From Hoeflea sp. (lineage in GTDB: Bacteria; Pseudomonadota; Alphaproteobacteria; Rhizobiales; Rhizobiaceae): a stretch of 64,000 bases of DNA. Of the stretch, positions 20,067-25,858 are shown piece by piece. Numbering within the stretch: position 1 is the stretch's first letter; the number at the start of each line of letters is the position of its first letter. Below the pieces are notes generated by a model. It saw nothing but the letters and a program-made list of their open reading frames with translations, was not told the DNA's origin and did not search any database. The translations under genes and the position numbers were made by a program. The DNA is taken from NCBI GenBank assembly GCA_019084245.1, contig JAHRFE010000008.1, forward strand, positions 1 to 64,000, in the 5' to 3' direction.

Positions 20067-20087
20067 CCGGGGCGGGCGAGCCTGGTC

Positions 20088-20162
20088 AAAAAAAACCGCG
20101 CACGAAGCGCGGCAAAGCTTGGGAGGAAACGCCCAAGGAGGGCATTCACAGTCTAGGACTGT
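20088..20162 (-). ncRNA. mmgR: mmgR / suhB-motif (alpha-r8 type) small RNA
   Basis: A compact minus-strand RNA gene of about 75 nt. Read 5' to 3' it has a 6-bp hairpin (20148-20162), a central hairpin CTTGGG/CCCAAG (20118-20123 with 20132-20137) that can alternate with GCCC/GGGC (20131-20143), and a GC-rich terminator stem (20096-20101 with 20107-20112) followed by eight T residues. Two CCTCC anti-Shine-Dalgarno motifs lie in the central part. Size, structure and place beside a suhB/hisN-like gene agree with MmgR of Sinorhizobium, the sRNA behind the Rfam suhB motif, which limits polyhydroxybutyrate granule formation. The assignment rests on recalled features, not a search. Confidence 0.82.
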
Positions 20163-22508: not shown

Positions 22509-22976
22509 ATGCGTCACGTTGATTTTTCACCCCTCTACCGTTCCACCGTCGGCTTCGACAAGTTGCTGACCATGCTGGACAGCCTGGCTCCGACAGAACA
22601 GGCACAAACCTACCCGCCCTACAATATCGAACGCACCGGCGATAACACCTATCGCATCACCATGGCCGTGGCCGGCTTTGCGGAAACCGAGATTTCCATT
22701 GAAGCGCGCGAACATGTGCTGACCGTCAAGGGTGAAAAGGCCGACGAACAGGAGTCCGAAGGCTCGGAATTCCTCTATCGCGGCATTGCCAAGCGCGCAT
22801 TTGAGCGCCGTTTCCAACTTGCTGACCATGTCGAAGTCACTGGCGCCTCGCTGCGCAACGGGCTTCTTCATGTGGATCTGGTTCGCGAGCTTCCCGAAGC
22901 CATGAAGCCGCGCCGCATCGCCATCAGTAGCGACGCCGTCGGCAAGACCAAGCAGATCGAAGCAACAAAGGCCTGA
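22509..22976 (+). CDS. Small heat-shock protein, Hsp20/IbpA family
   Basis: A 155-residue class A rhizobial small heat-shock protein, an ATP-independent chaperone that holds unfolding proteins in the cytoplasm. The N-terminus MRHVDFSPLYRSTVGFDKL is typical of the IbpA-like group; the alpha-crystallin domain runs from about residue 37 to 135 (YNIERTGDNTYRITMAVAGF to GLLHVDLVRELPE), with the ELPEAMKPRRI motif before a short tail. The ATG at 22509 follows an AAGGAGG site that is masked by the ROSE hairpin, so it is under heat control at two levels. Confidence 0.95.
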   Translation: MRHVDFSPLYRSTVGFDKLLTMLDSLAPTEQAQTYPPYNIERTGDNTYRITMAVAGFAETEISIEAREHVLTVKGEKADEQESEGSEFLYRGIAKRAFERRFQLADHVEVTGASLRNGLLHVDLVRELPEAMKPRRIAISSDAVGKTKQIEATKA

Positions 22977-23004: not shown

Positions 23005-23033
23005 GTGGCGCTCAGGAGACTGAGCGCCACTTT
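23005..23033 (+). terminator. Terminator between hsp20 and the bufferin operon
   Basis: A perfect 11-bp stem (23005-23015 with 23020-23030, loop GAGA) is followed by TTT on the plus strand, 28 bp after the hsp20 stop. The stem is also placed where it could block read-through from the convergent doxX gene, but no T-run is present on the minus strand. Confidence 0.75.
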
Positions 23034-23065: not shown

Positions 23066-23638
23066 TCAGACTTGCCGTGGCACCCTGGTGAGAAGGCCGT
23101 CCAGGGAAAGACCACCCGGTCCCTTGATCGAAATGACCATCAGCGGCACCAGCCACAACAACCGCTGATCCGCGATCACGGCATCCGGGAAGCGGTCGAA
23201 CCAGGCGCCGATGGCCTCGGCGCCAATCTTGTGAACGGTGATGTCCACGAAGGTCTGTACCGTTATGAAGCCGATCATGCCGAGTGCCGCAATCCGCGAG
23301 AACAGTCCGACGACAATCAGCAGCGGCAGGATGAATTCTGCGTAGGTGCCCATGAGGACGATCAGGCCCCAGGGAAAGAAAGCCACCGCATCGACATCGC
23401 CGCCCGCGGCCTCAACCGCCGGCAGGGCGATCTGGTAATAGGCGCCGGGCGAAATCGAAAAGAAACCGGTTAGACCGTCGCCGACCTTGGTCTTGGCCGA
23501 ATTGAGAAAATAACCCCACAACACGGCCGCAAAGGCGAAGCGGGCGATCAGGCCGAGCAGCCATTTGTCGCCGATCCGCTCGAGACCAACAAAAAAGCGA
23601 TCATGCAGCCCGGTGAGATGGCAGATAGCCGATGTCAT
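23066..23638 (-). CDS. bufD: DoxX-family membrane protein of bufferin operon (BufD-like)
   Basis: A 190-residue integral membrane protein of the DoxX family with about four hydrophobic segments (near residues 29-45, 85-110, 115-135 and 160-172). DoxX proteins are quinone- or redox-associated membrane proteins; in bufferin clusters they are the fourth gene and their exact role is unresolved. The ATG at 23638 overlaps the stop of the preceding DUF2063 gene (ATGA), so it is translationally coupled to it. A start at 23668 would lie inside that gene and is less likely. It is the last gene of the operon. Confidence 0.85.
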   Translation of the reverse strand: MTSAICHLTGLHDRFFVGLERIGDKWLLGLIARFAFAAVLWGYFLNSAKTKVGDGLTGFFSISPGAYYQIALPAVEAAGGDVDAVAFFPWGLIVLMGTYAEFILPLLIVVGLFSRIAALGMIGFITVQTFVDITVHKIGAEAIGAWFDRFPDAVIADQRLLWLVPLMVISIKGPGGLSLDGLLTRVPRQV

Positions 23639-24438
23639 GTGATTTGCTCCGTCTGTGCCTGACTGCACGAGCAGGCTGAAAAAACACCGGCTTCCAGCAT
23701 GGCTGAAATCGCGGCTGGCAGATCGAACCCGGGATGACGCTCGACCGTGATGGTCGCCGCGCCCGCAAGCGTTTCCCCGGTAATCAATGCCTCAAAGAAT
23801 TGCGCAGCGCCGGGTGGCAGCGTCCTGACCTGAACCTCAAAATCCGGCCGTGTGATCAACCCGTCTTCCGGATCAAGCGGCCTGATGCGATCAAGCGGGC
23901 GGTATTCGCGACTGGCTGAAAATATCGAGACAGCGGCGTACCGGCTCCTGACGATGCGTGCGGCGGGATGCGGGGTGAACCGCACGTCGCCGAGGTTTTC
24001 GGGCGCGATCACCCCCAGGGCTTCGGGAGACAGCGGTTCAACATCGGTTGAATGAAACACATCCAGCCATGCCCTTTCGAGGCGGGCGACATCGGCCAGA
24101 TAAGGCAATTTCGAGACCGGTTCGAAACGGTCGAGGAAAGCGGCAAAACCGCTGCCATATTCGAACATGACCGCCGAGGCCGGCGGTTCCTCCGTGAGGT
24201 ACACCCGGGCCATGTTCCTGAAGAAATCCGGGCCCACAAGCCGCTGAACGGCGGGAAAGATATCCGCCAGCGAGTCGATCAGGCTTACCGTCACATTGTT
24301 GCGGTAGACGGCGAAGCGTCTTTGCGCGCTCTTGCCGGCCGGACCGACCACGCCTTTGGGGAGGGGAAGATCCGGATCGAGCAGAGCCGCGGCGAAATCC
24401 GCCTGGGGCGCATCACGCGCCGGATCATTCCGCGGCAT
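23635..24438 (-). CDS. bufC: DUF2063 partner protein of MNIO enzyme (BufC-like)
   Basis: A 267-residue protein with the DUF2063 N-terminal domain: FAAALLDPDLPLPKGVVGP, then RRFAVYRNNVTVSLIDSLADIFPAVQRLVGPDFF, the diagnostic stretch. Known members bind the RiPP precursor and deliver it to the DUF692 oxidase. An ACSCSQ run near the C-terminus contains two Cys. The ATG at 24438 lies 14 bp inside the end of the upstream DUF692 gene, and the stop overlaps the doxX start, so all are made together. Longer in-frame codons to 24630 are not supported by the family. Confidence 0.9.
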   Translation of the reverse strand: MPRNDPARDAPQADFAAALLDPDLPLPKGVVGPAGKSAQRRFAVYRNNVTVSLIDSLADIFPAVQRLVGPDFFRNMARVYLTEEPPASAVMFEYGSGFAAFLDRFEPVSKLPYLADVARLERAWLDVFHSTDVEPLSPEALGVIAPENLGDVRFTPHPAARIVRSRYAAVSIFSASREYRPLDRIRPLDPEDGLITRPDFEVQVRTLPPGAAQFFEALITGETLAGAATITVERHPGFDLPAAISAMLEAGVFSACSCSQAQTEQIT

Positions 24439-25339
24439 GACGGGATCCAAGCAGGGAGGCAGGTCCCAAGCGATCGAGAATTGCATCGGCCAGTTGAGCT
24501 TCGCGGCGCAGCACCGGCCAATCCGGCACGTCATTGTCCCACTCAACCAGCGTCGGCAGCGCGCCGGTCTGGCTGATGACGGTCTCATAGAGCTTCCAGA
24601 CGGCGTCGGCGACCGGACGGTCGTGGGCATCGATCAGAAGAAGGTCGCCCTCGTCGTCGGTATCCGCGGCATGACCGGCGAGATGGATTTCCTCCACCAG
24701 TTCCAGCGGGAACTCGCGCAGATATTGCAGCGGCTTGAAACCATGATTGACGGCTGAGACGAAGACATTGTTGATGTCGAGAAGCAGCCCGCAGCCGGAT
24801 TTGCGGGCGATCTCGCGGATGAAATCAGTCTCGCTCATCGTGGTCTGCTCGAAAGCCACGTAGGTCGACGGGTTTTCCAAAAGGATCGGGCGCTTGAGCC
24901 GGTCCTGGATCCGGCCCAGATGCGAAACCACCCGTTCGAGGGTTGCCGAATTGTAAGGCACCGGCAAAAGGTCGTTGAAGTAGCCCGCGTCGTGGCTCGA
25001 CCAGGCGAGATGTTCCGACACCATCGCGGGTTCGTACCTCTCGACAACCCTGGCCAGTCGTTCGAGATGGGCAGGATTGATGCCGCTCCCCGACCCGATC
25101 GACAGGCCAACGCCATGCACGGAAACAGGGAATTCGGAGCGGATGGCTGTCAACGCGCGATGCGCCGGGCCGCCGTCTCCCATGTAGTTCTCGGCATGGA
25201 TCTCAAGAAATCCGATCCGGTAGGAATCGGCCAGGATCTGGTCGATATGCGCGGACTTCAAGCCCGCCCCCGCACGAGGCGGGAGCGGGGCGCGCGGAAA
25301 ACGCGGCCCACTGGATGATATGGAGGCGGACTGCGTCAT
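24425..25339 (-). CDS. bufB: DUF692/MNIO multinuclear iron oxidase (BufB-like)
   Basis: A 304-residue TIM-barrel enzyme of the MNIO (DUF692, MbnB-like) family, iron-dependent oxidases that modify cysteines of peptide precursors. The metal ligands expected for the family are seen: EIHAENYMG (H48, E50), SVHGVG (H75), SEHLAW (H110), LENPSTY (E155), DINNVFVSA (D188), EIHLAGH (H219, H223), DAHDRP (D237, H239) and VEWD (E266). The ATG at 25339 has GGGAG at a good distance; a start at 25360 is possible. It lies 31 bp after the DUF2282 precursor gene. Confidence 0.93.
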   Translation of the reverse strand: MTQSASISSSGPRFPRAPLPPRAGAGLKSAHIDQILADSYRIGFLEIHAENYMGDGGPAHRALTAIRSEFPVSVHGVGLSIGSGSGINPAHLERLARVVERYEPAMVSEHLAWSSHDAGYFNDLLPVPYNSATLERVVSHLGRIQDRLKRPILLENPSTYVAFEQTTMSETDFIREIARKSGCGLLLDINNVFVSAVNHGFKPLQYLREFPLELVEEIHLAGHAADTDDEGDLLLIDAHDRPVADAVWKLYETVISQTGALPTLVEWDNDVPDWPVLRREAQLADAILDRLGPASLLGSRHAAE

Positions 25340-25370
25340 TTGGTGACTCCCGTTTGCCAAAGTCGCCGGA

Positions 25371-25676
25371 TCAGGCCGGGAGATCGCGATCGAGCGGCTC
25401 GAGCGAGCCCATGCGTCCGCCGTCGACGCTCATCGTGGTGCAGGTGCCTGCATCGACCGTTTTCCAGGCATTGCCCTGGTAGTCGACCTTGGACGTTCCC
25501 GCGCATGTGGTGCCGGGTCCGGCAGCGCAGTCGTTCTTTCCGGCCATGGCGACGCCATAGCATTTTTCGGTGGCGGCCGATGCCCCGTCGGTCGATGCGA
25601 GGAATGTTGCCCCCGAAATGGCCATGGCCACTGCACCTGCGAGAGCCGACGCGCTAATGAGCGTTTTCTGCGACAT
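25371..25676 (-). CDS. bufA: DUF2282 bufferin-type RiPP precursor (BufA1-like)
   Basis: A 101-residue secreted precursor. A Sec signal peptide covers about residues 1-35 (hydrophobic [17 protein letters not shown], cleavage near ASA-A). The core has the four conserved cysteines C39 (EKCYG), C50 (KNDC), C58 (TTCAG) and C79 (GTC). In the Caulobacter homologues the two central Cys are turned into thiooxazoles by the MNIO enzyme, and the peptide binds copper in the periplasm, buffering metal stress. The ATG at 25676 follows AAGGAG seven bases upstream. It is the first gene of bufA-bufB-bufC-doxX. Confidence 0.93.
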
Positions 25677-25741: not shown

Positions 25742-25795
25742 GACAAACTGTCGCATCACTTGGAAATCAAGCGCACGTTATCGGGCATCACTTGG
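25742..25795 (-). promoter_or_regulatory. Repeat elements upstream of the bufferin operon
   Basis: Two exact 11-bp direct repeats, GCATCACTTGG at 25753-25763 and 25785-25795, start 32 bp apart (about three helical turns). Next to the first lies the small palindrome GACAAACTGTC (25742-25752). They sit 66-119 bp before the bufA start, where a regulator of the operon would bind. No clear ECF-type promoter was recognised. The rest of 25677-25858 shows nothing else. Confidence 0.5.
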
Positions 25796-25858
25796 CTGTG
25801 AGCCTGGAGTGATCGTGTCTATTCTTGCTGAACACGGATGTCAGCGGACGGATGTCTG

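Follow-up and report, generated by a model that had tools for sequence, protein, structure and literature searches.

Bufferin operons of the Buf1 type consist of four core genes, and their precursors carry four conserved Cys residues, of which the two central ones are modified and the first and last form a disulfide; the bufferin peptide of Caulobacter chelates copper (PMC12452194). These peptides have been placed in the captophorin class, with 5-thiooxazoles (PMC12668002), and thiooxazoles have been reported for fontiphorin and oxazolin (PMC12452194, PMC12668002). The Caulobacter Buf1 operon, CC3254-CC3257, has the order DUF2282, MNIO, DUF2063, DoxX (PMC3511200) and belongs to the SigF/NrsF system, SigF driving it at GTAACC-N16-CGAA (PMC3511200, PMC8224329). 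In Sinorhizobium meliloti, the operon SMb20530-SMb20527, which contains DUF692 and DUF2063 genes and presumably begins with a DUF2282 precursor, has an RpoE7-dependent promoter at a similar site, and rpoE7 and ecfR7 are next in locus number (PMC6180224). In the literature found here, the picture of bufferin control in alphaproteobacteria rests on SigF and RpoE7, both of them extracytoplasmic function (ECF) sigma factors. Here we analyze a bufferin operon in a 64,000-nucleotide stretch of DNA from a marine Hoeflea sp. (the window; assembly GCA_019084245.1, contig JAHRFE010000008.1, positions 1 to 64,000), which is preceded by a conserved, apparently undescribed array of direct repeats.

The bufferin operon of the window

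With a probability that we put at about three in four, positions 23066-25676 form a complete chromosomal Buf1/DUF2282 bufferin operon with a Buf1-type product. Its four open reading frames (ORFs) lie on the minus strand, at the positions given in an earlier reading made without database searches (the sequence-only reading):

25371-25676, minus strand: bufA, Buf1/DUF2282 precursor, 101 aa (PF10048, E = 4.7e-24, 84.6 bits, cut-off 22.4)
24425-25339 (from its own ATG), minus strand: bufB, MNIO oxidase, 304 aa (PF05114 MbnB_TglH_ChrH, E = 3.9e-102)
23635-24438, minus strand: bufC, DUF2063 (PME-type 1) partner, 267 aa (PF09836, E = 6.6e-26)
23066-23638, minus strand: gene for a DoxX-like membrane protein, 190 aa (PF07681, E = 1.2e-4, 23.1 bits, cut-off 23.6)

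The identity, order and conservation of these genes are clear, and on recomputation the overlaps agreed with those reported earlier, 14 bp for bufB/bufC and 4 bp (ATGA) for bufC/doxX. Both an MNIO maturase and its PME-type 1 (DUF2063) partner are encoded in the operon according to Pfam and NCBIfam. Because BufB exceeds the cut-off of the NCBIfam model NF050167 (MNIO_BufB; 374 bits, cut-off 310), while BufA stays far below that of the NCBIfam BufA2 model (20.5 bits, cut-off 60), the precursor is assigned to the Buf1 kind. The same score separates it in precursor family from the BufA2 bufferins and the EGKCG captophorins (oxazolin, fontiphorin), which share with it an MNIO enzyme, a DUF2063 partner and a secreted Cys peptide. 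Searches of the genome found one gene each for DUF2282 and MNIO. The Pfam, NCBIfam and neighbor-gene matches thus bear out the bufferin-type operon that had been proposed from the letters, and the layout and chemistry cited with that proposal are in print (PMC12452194). Since Buf1 operons of such make-up have already been published, the genes are ordinary, and what looks new lies in the control region, which the sequence-only reading passed over.

BufA contains Cys residues at positions 39, 50, 58 and 79, followed by 22 residues, and its N terminus displays by eye the n-, h- and AxA regions of a Sec-type signal, with an ASA/A boundary near residue 34. We aligned the window BufA with the precursors of 34 of 75 loci having an ATG start; in these 35 sequences, chosen by similarity, the four Cys are invariant, as had been claimed, and so are R88, G90, L95, R97, D98 and P100 of the tail. 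BufB harbors the motifs VHGVG (starting at residue 74), SEHLAW (108), LLENPS (153), LLLDINN (185), AVNHG (196), IHLAGHA (218), IDAHDRP (236) and LVEWDND (264). It aligns with 3bww and with MbnB chains, and its motifs have counterparts in 3bww; the motifs taken for iron ligands are present and match solved MNIO chains, and residues within them would bind the iron. A search against PDB sequences gave no match for BufC at E ≤ 0.001 and a chance-level match for BufA, and neither BufA nor the DoxX-like protein had a match in PHROGs.

By homology, BufA would be made with its Sec signal peptide, and BufB and BufC would turn the central residues C50 and C58, which correspond to the modified Buf1 pair described in PMC12452194, into 5-thiooxazoles. 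The peptide would be exported, would acquire a C39-C79 disulfide and, in its mature form, would chelate copper in the periplasm. Two results weigh against the assignment as a whole. Of the four families expected by the sequence-only reading, DUF2282, MbnB_TglH_ChrH and DUF2063 were recovered, but the fourth protein fell just below the DoxX cut-off, and it also had a match to the Pfam AbrB family, again below the cut-off (24.4 bits, cut-off 29.2). The AlphaFold2 model of BufA was poor (mean predicted local distance difference test score 55.6) and uninformative on Cys geometry.

The direct-repeat array and promoter classes

Upstream of bufA, direct repeats at about 11 bp are present, as in OmpR/PhoB-type operators:

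25755-25812, minus strand: promoter array of six TSAY/TAAC half-sites, directly repeated and phased at 10-11 bp, with 5' bases at 25812 (TCAC), 25801 (TCAC), 25790 (TGAT), 25780 (TAAC), 25769 (TGAT) and 25758 (TGAT)
25756-25770, minus strand: TTGATTTCCAAGTGA core, about 90 bp before the ATG, at the presumed -35 position

The half-sites are spaced by 11, 11, 10, 11 and 11 bp, and the array ends in TTGATTTCCAAGTGA. Of the 18 genomes of the genus, 16 have T[CGA]A at every one of these six places and two have it at five of them; when the 18 upstream regions are aligned, a stretch of about 70 bp is seen by eye to be conserved far above its flanks. When 80 promoters (40 representatives below 70% identity) were aligned on TTGATTTCC, T and A peaks appeared at -42, -31, -20, -10, +1 and +12, with T at +23 in 82% and A at +29 in 40/40 representatives. 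When 90 offsets were scanned in 36 representatives, the six peak offsets, and more weakly +38, showed T[CG]A[CT] in more than 15% or T[CGA]A in more than 30%; the values at -10 were 42% for T[CGA]A and 8% for TSAY. Single promoters carry 1 to 6 in-phase half-sites (median 4).

The phasing was also recovered free of alignment. In 25 promoters of the TTG type, that of the window, taken from outside the genus, TSAY pairs were counted 31 times at 11 bp, 20 times at 32 bp and 13 times at 21 bp, where 0.4-0.7 were expected, and pairs at 10, 22 and 33 bp were enriched to a lesser degree. The 39 "other" loci, most of which bear Rhodobacteraceae names, showed enrichment at 10-11, 20-21, 29 and 31-32 bp, including 11 pairs at 11 bp. 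As controls, 4033 random segments of the same loci held 77 such 11-bp pairs, and upstream regions of hsp20 and threonine aldolase genes, 37 of each, gave 0 and 2 pairs. Within the Hoeflea genome itself, CTCACNNNCAAGTGA was found before bufA and, with one mismatch, at five further sites (reversed-pattern control, 0 and 3), while CTTGATTTCCANNTGA with one mismatch was limited to the bufA site and one other. This second core copy (CTTGATTTCCATGTGG; L140, C39:70929-70944) lies shortly before a gene that by eye is cold-shock-like, and is probably due to chance.

The published promoter type is missing here. None of the 26 candidates scored in the genome matched NrsF, although the Caulobacter control was detected, and the strict SigF motif GTAAC-N15-17-CGAA, counted at -170 to -30 of bufA, was found in 0/18 genus genomes; its 22 matches in the Hoeflea genome include none on contig C17, and one genus member (L017) has a strict match at -257, beyond the range counted. 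TTGATTTCC lies between -170 and -30 in 18/18. We extended the comparison to a family sample of 297 genomes, 157 with a DUF2282 match; 136 of these 157 were retrieved, giving 150 bufA records, a few of which are fragments or second copies. NrsF was called above the Pfam cut-off (106/297 genomes), with 4 below-cut-off genomes assigned to the NrsF-lacking group and no more than 10 candidates scored per genome, some genomes being incomplete. With up to one mismatch, TTGATTTCC at -170 to -30 precedes bufA in 66/75 NrsF-lacking versus 1/61 NrsF-bearing genomes, and the strict SigF motif in 0/75 versus 39/61, in promoter classes that were set after inspection of the upstream data and with Fisher p-values that ignore kinship. 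In shuffled upstream regions the two patterns occurred at 0.6% and 0.09%, respectively. The inverted repeat TCACGAAAGCGTG also lies upstream of GTAAC in four SigF-type promoters from Ensifer/Sinorhizobium (L067, L092, L126, L130) and likewise in L041 and L050.

Promoter classes cluster in a quick BufB tree of 108 rows, which omits 13 further genus rows, 4 loci without a long BufB match and 3 without a promoter class, and which has two TTG labels (L070, L105) outside the TTG class. A more careful tree, with 58 rows made up of 40 out of 41 from a single clade and 18 hand-chosen outside rows, places six SigF-type rows, L067, L092, L115, L124, L126 and L130, inside the TTG class at starred branches with support of 97/87 and 99/93, while the branch uniting the six is itself weak (90/54). 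The best tree holding the TTG class together was worse by 38 log units (approximately unbiased test, p 0.011) for a group of 30 TTG and 4 unclassed rows that had been named after the quick tree was viewed. Since SigF-type promoters nest within the TTG class, at least one switch of bufferin control is favored, and the nesting suggests its direction. The four Ensifer/Sinorhizobium loci named above, whose BufB nests in this way, also differ from the window in having neither an hsp20 neighbor nor a DoxX match.

As a conserved sequence feature the control region is well supported, with a function that may be regulatory. We found no description of such an array among the titles and abstract openings listed from the literature searched, which was mainly open access and whose matches did not include the original bufferin paper; the word "promoter" occurs zero times in the main text of PMC12452194.

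Regulators that may act on the array

PhoB-like response regulators sit on promoters through phased direct half-sites near -35, and PhoB/OmpR-family operators resemble the array in having such half-sites at 11-bp spacing that reach -35. To our knowledge, TSAY is neither the PhoB nor the CtrA half-site. We infer that bufA control differs from the ECF sigma type (SigF/RpoE7, NrsF) and involves an OmpR-type or other oligomeric regulator; an oligomeric activator would bind the array, in its 10-11 bp phase, as far as the presumed -35, and the likeliest candidate for this putative activator is an OmpR/PhoB-type response regulator, to which we give about even odds. Tentatively, and with slightly more doubt than confidence, we regard the TSAY array as the operator of an undescribed, widely conserved regulator of metal or envelope stress, representing the older Buf1 control in Rhizobiales and Rhodobacteraceae, which ECF SigF/NrsF would have replaced in the Sinorhizobium/Ensifer-Mesorhizobium-Mycoplana branch. 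If the array works as inferred, a different sensor governs production of the same peptide in many relatives of Caulobacter and Sinorhizobium. The signal sensed, be it copper, redox or envelope stress, may then be another one, and the array could serve as DNA bait for finding the regulator.

Several observations weigh against this reading of the array. Under the counting rules given above, and for the loci covered, TTGATTTCC is missing from 9/75 NrsF-lacking genomes and the strict SigF motif from 22/61 NrsF-bearing ones; among 71 NrsF-bearing records, 16 have GTAAC without a strict -10 and 15 have neither. TSAY distances out of phase (6, 14-15, 25-26 and 29 bp) are enriched too, less strongly, and the SigF/GTAAC-type promoters yield 7 11-bp pairs in 28, so the array is perhaps not exclusive to its class. 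Strict chains of at least four TSAY at 10-11 bp occur in 2/25 TTG-type promoters outside the genus, and a scan of the whole window for them found none, missing even the array before bufA because its fourth half-site is TAAC. Among the 40 most recurrent clusters of neighboring genes no regulator gene beside the operon was seen; these clusters comprise ORFs of at least 110 aa from 80 named loci and the window, each present in at least 15 loci, and would miss a shorter regulator or one kept by fewer loci.

A further difficulty is that the second TCAC, together with GTGA at the third half-site, forms the inverted repeat TCAC-N6-GTGA, which a dimeric repressor could use. The array might instead be the operator of a repressor, for example such a dimer, that is released by copper or another stress, with the bufferin product unchanged. 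TCAC-N6-GTGA is present in 17/18 genus promoters and many others, and the core overlaps the presumed -35; however, direct repeats spaced by 10-11 bp make up the strongest and most widespread signal although binding to an inverted repeat would not require them, and only parts of the array form the inverted repeat, so we consider a repressor unlikely, though worth keeping in view. TTGATTTCC might also serve as a -35 element for an alternative sigma factor, for instance an RpoH paralogue, which would place the operon in a heat or oxidative stress regulon, but we consider this quite improbable. Its position about 90 bp before the ATG, the T at +23 and A at +29 described above, and the synteny with hsp20 would fit, but CTTGATTTCCANNTGA with one mismatch has just one further genomic site, the hsp20 upstream regions show no 11-bp TSAY phasing (0/37), and the upstream half-sites would be left unexplained.

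What the operon serves can be doubted as well. Gold gave the related gig operons their name, chromate and cadmium elicit a response of the Caulobacter operon (PMC12452194, PMC3511200, PMC8224329), and DoxX may hint at oxidative or sulfur stress (PMC12452194). The main target of the operon could on these grounds be a metal other than copper, or oxidative stress in the envelope. This is improbable in light of the Caulobacter data: Buf1 chelates copper and aids growth in excess copper (PMC12452194), the operon genes rise with copper, and a sigF mutant is copper-sensitive (PMC8224329). That the operon is a mere remnant, silent or in decay, is hardly credible; nothing was found in its favor, and the open frames, the invariant Cys, the presence in 18/18 genus genomes and the conserved promoter all speak against it.

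Neighborhood and conservation of the locus

BufA is found in 18/18 genomes of the genus, and named relatives with 93% and 89% precursor identity are Hoeflea alexandrii and Hoeflea sp. BRH_c9. The named loci are the best 80 of 575 confirmed by similarity to the window precursor, and their tails and Cys lean toward agreement because of this selection; 3 of the 80 have neither a start codon nor a promoter class assigned. Across 94 loci (80 named and 14 of the genus), matches were obtained for bufB in 93, bufC in 91 and doxX in 76, the latter downstream of bufA in these 76, directly after it in L110; some other loci are cut by contig ends. Five NrsF-bearing relatives (L024, L027, L032, L036, L039) each carry a same-strand pair of DUF2282 genes, separated by about 300 bp.

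The 22-residue tail after C79 and the position beside hsp20 had been suggested as perhaps specific to this lineage, and neither suggestion held. The tail motif GSLxxLxRDLP recurs in many other genera: by bufA records, GSLxxLxRD is present in 65/66 of the TTG type, 8/13 other NrsF-lacking and 18/71 NrsF-bearing ones, so that 73/79 NrsF-lacking records of the family sample have an RD-type tail. Similarly, hsp20 has a match in 37/94 loci, 23/80 named and 14/14 of the genus, where it follows the operon downstream and is encoded on the opposite strand, and we rejected both as lineage traits. In 35 of these 37 loci a threonine aldolase gene is present upstream as well. Among the named loci, hsp20 adjoins 19/23 TTG-type versus 0/10 strict SigF-type operons. 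We treat it as a conserved-synteny neighbor and do not count it within the pathway. Recurrent neighbors recognized by eye were threonine aldolase, hsp20, gltB and a CpdR-like receiver, many clusters being shadow frames. The kept neighborhood (threonine aldolase, bufABC-doxX, hsp20) suggests a chromosomal bufferin operon that has long been passed on vertically. Two features adjoin the operon on its doxX side:

22509-22976, plus strand: hsp20, HSP20 family, convergent neighbor (best NCBIfam match IbpA, below its cut-off)
23005-23030, no strand assigned: terminator-like perfect 11-bp hairpin in the gap between doxX and hsp20, GTGGCGCTCAG-TCTC-CTGAGCGCCAC (z = -3.4)

The hairpin is likely a two-way terminator. 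Elsewhere in the window, an Rfam suhB/mmgR small RNA was matched at 20081-20150 on the minus strand (56.2 bits, gathering score 41).

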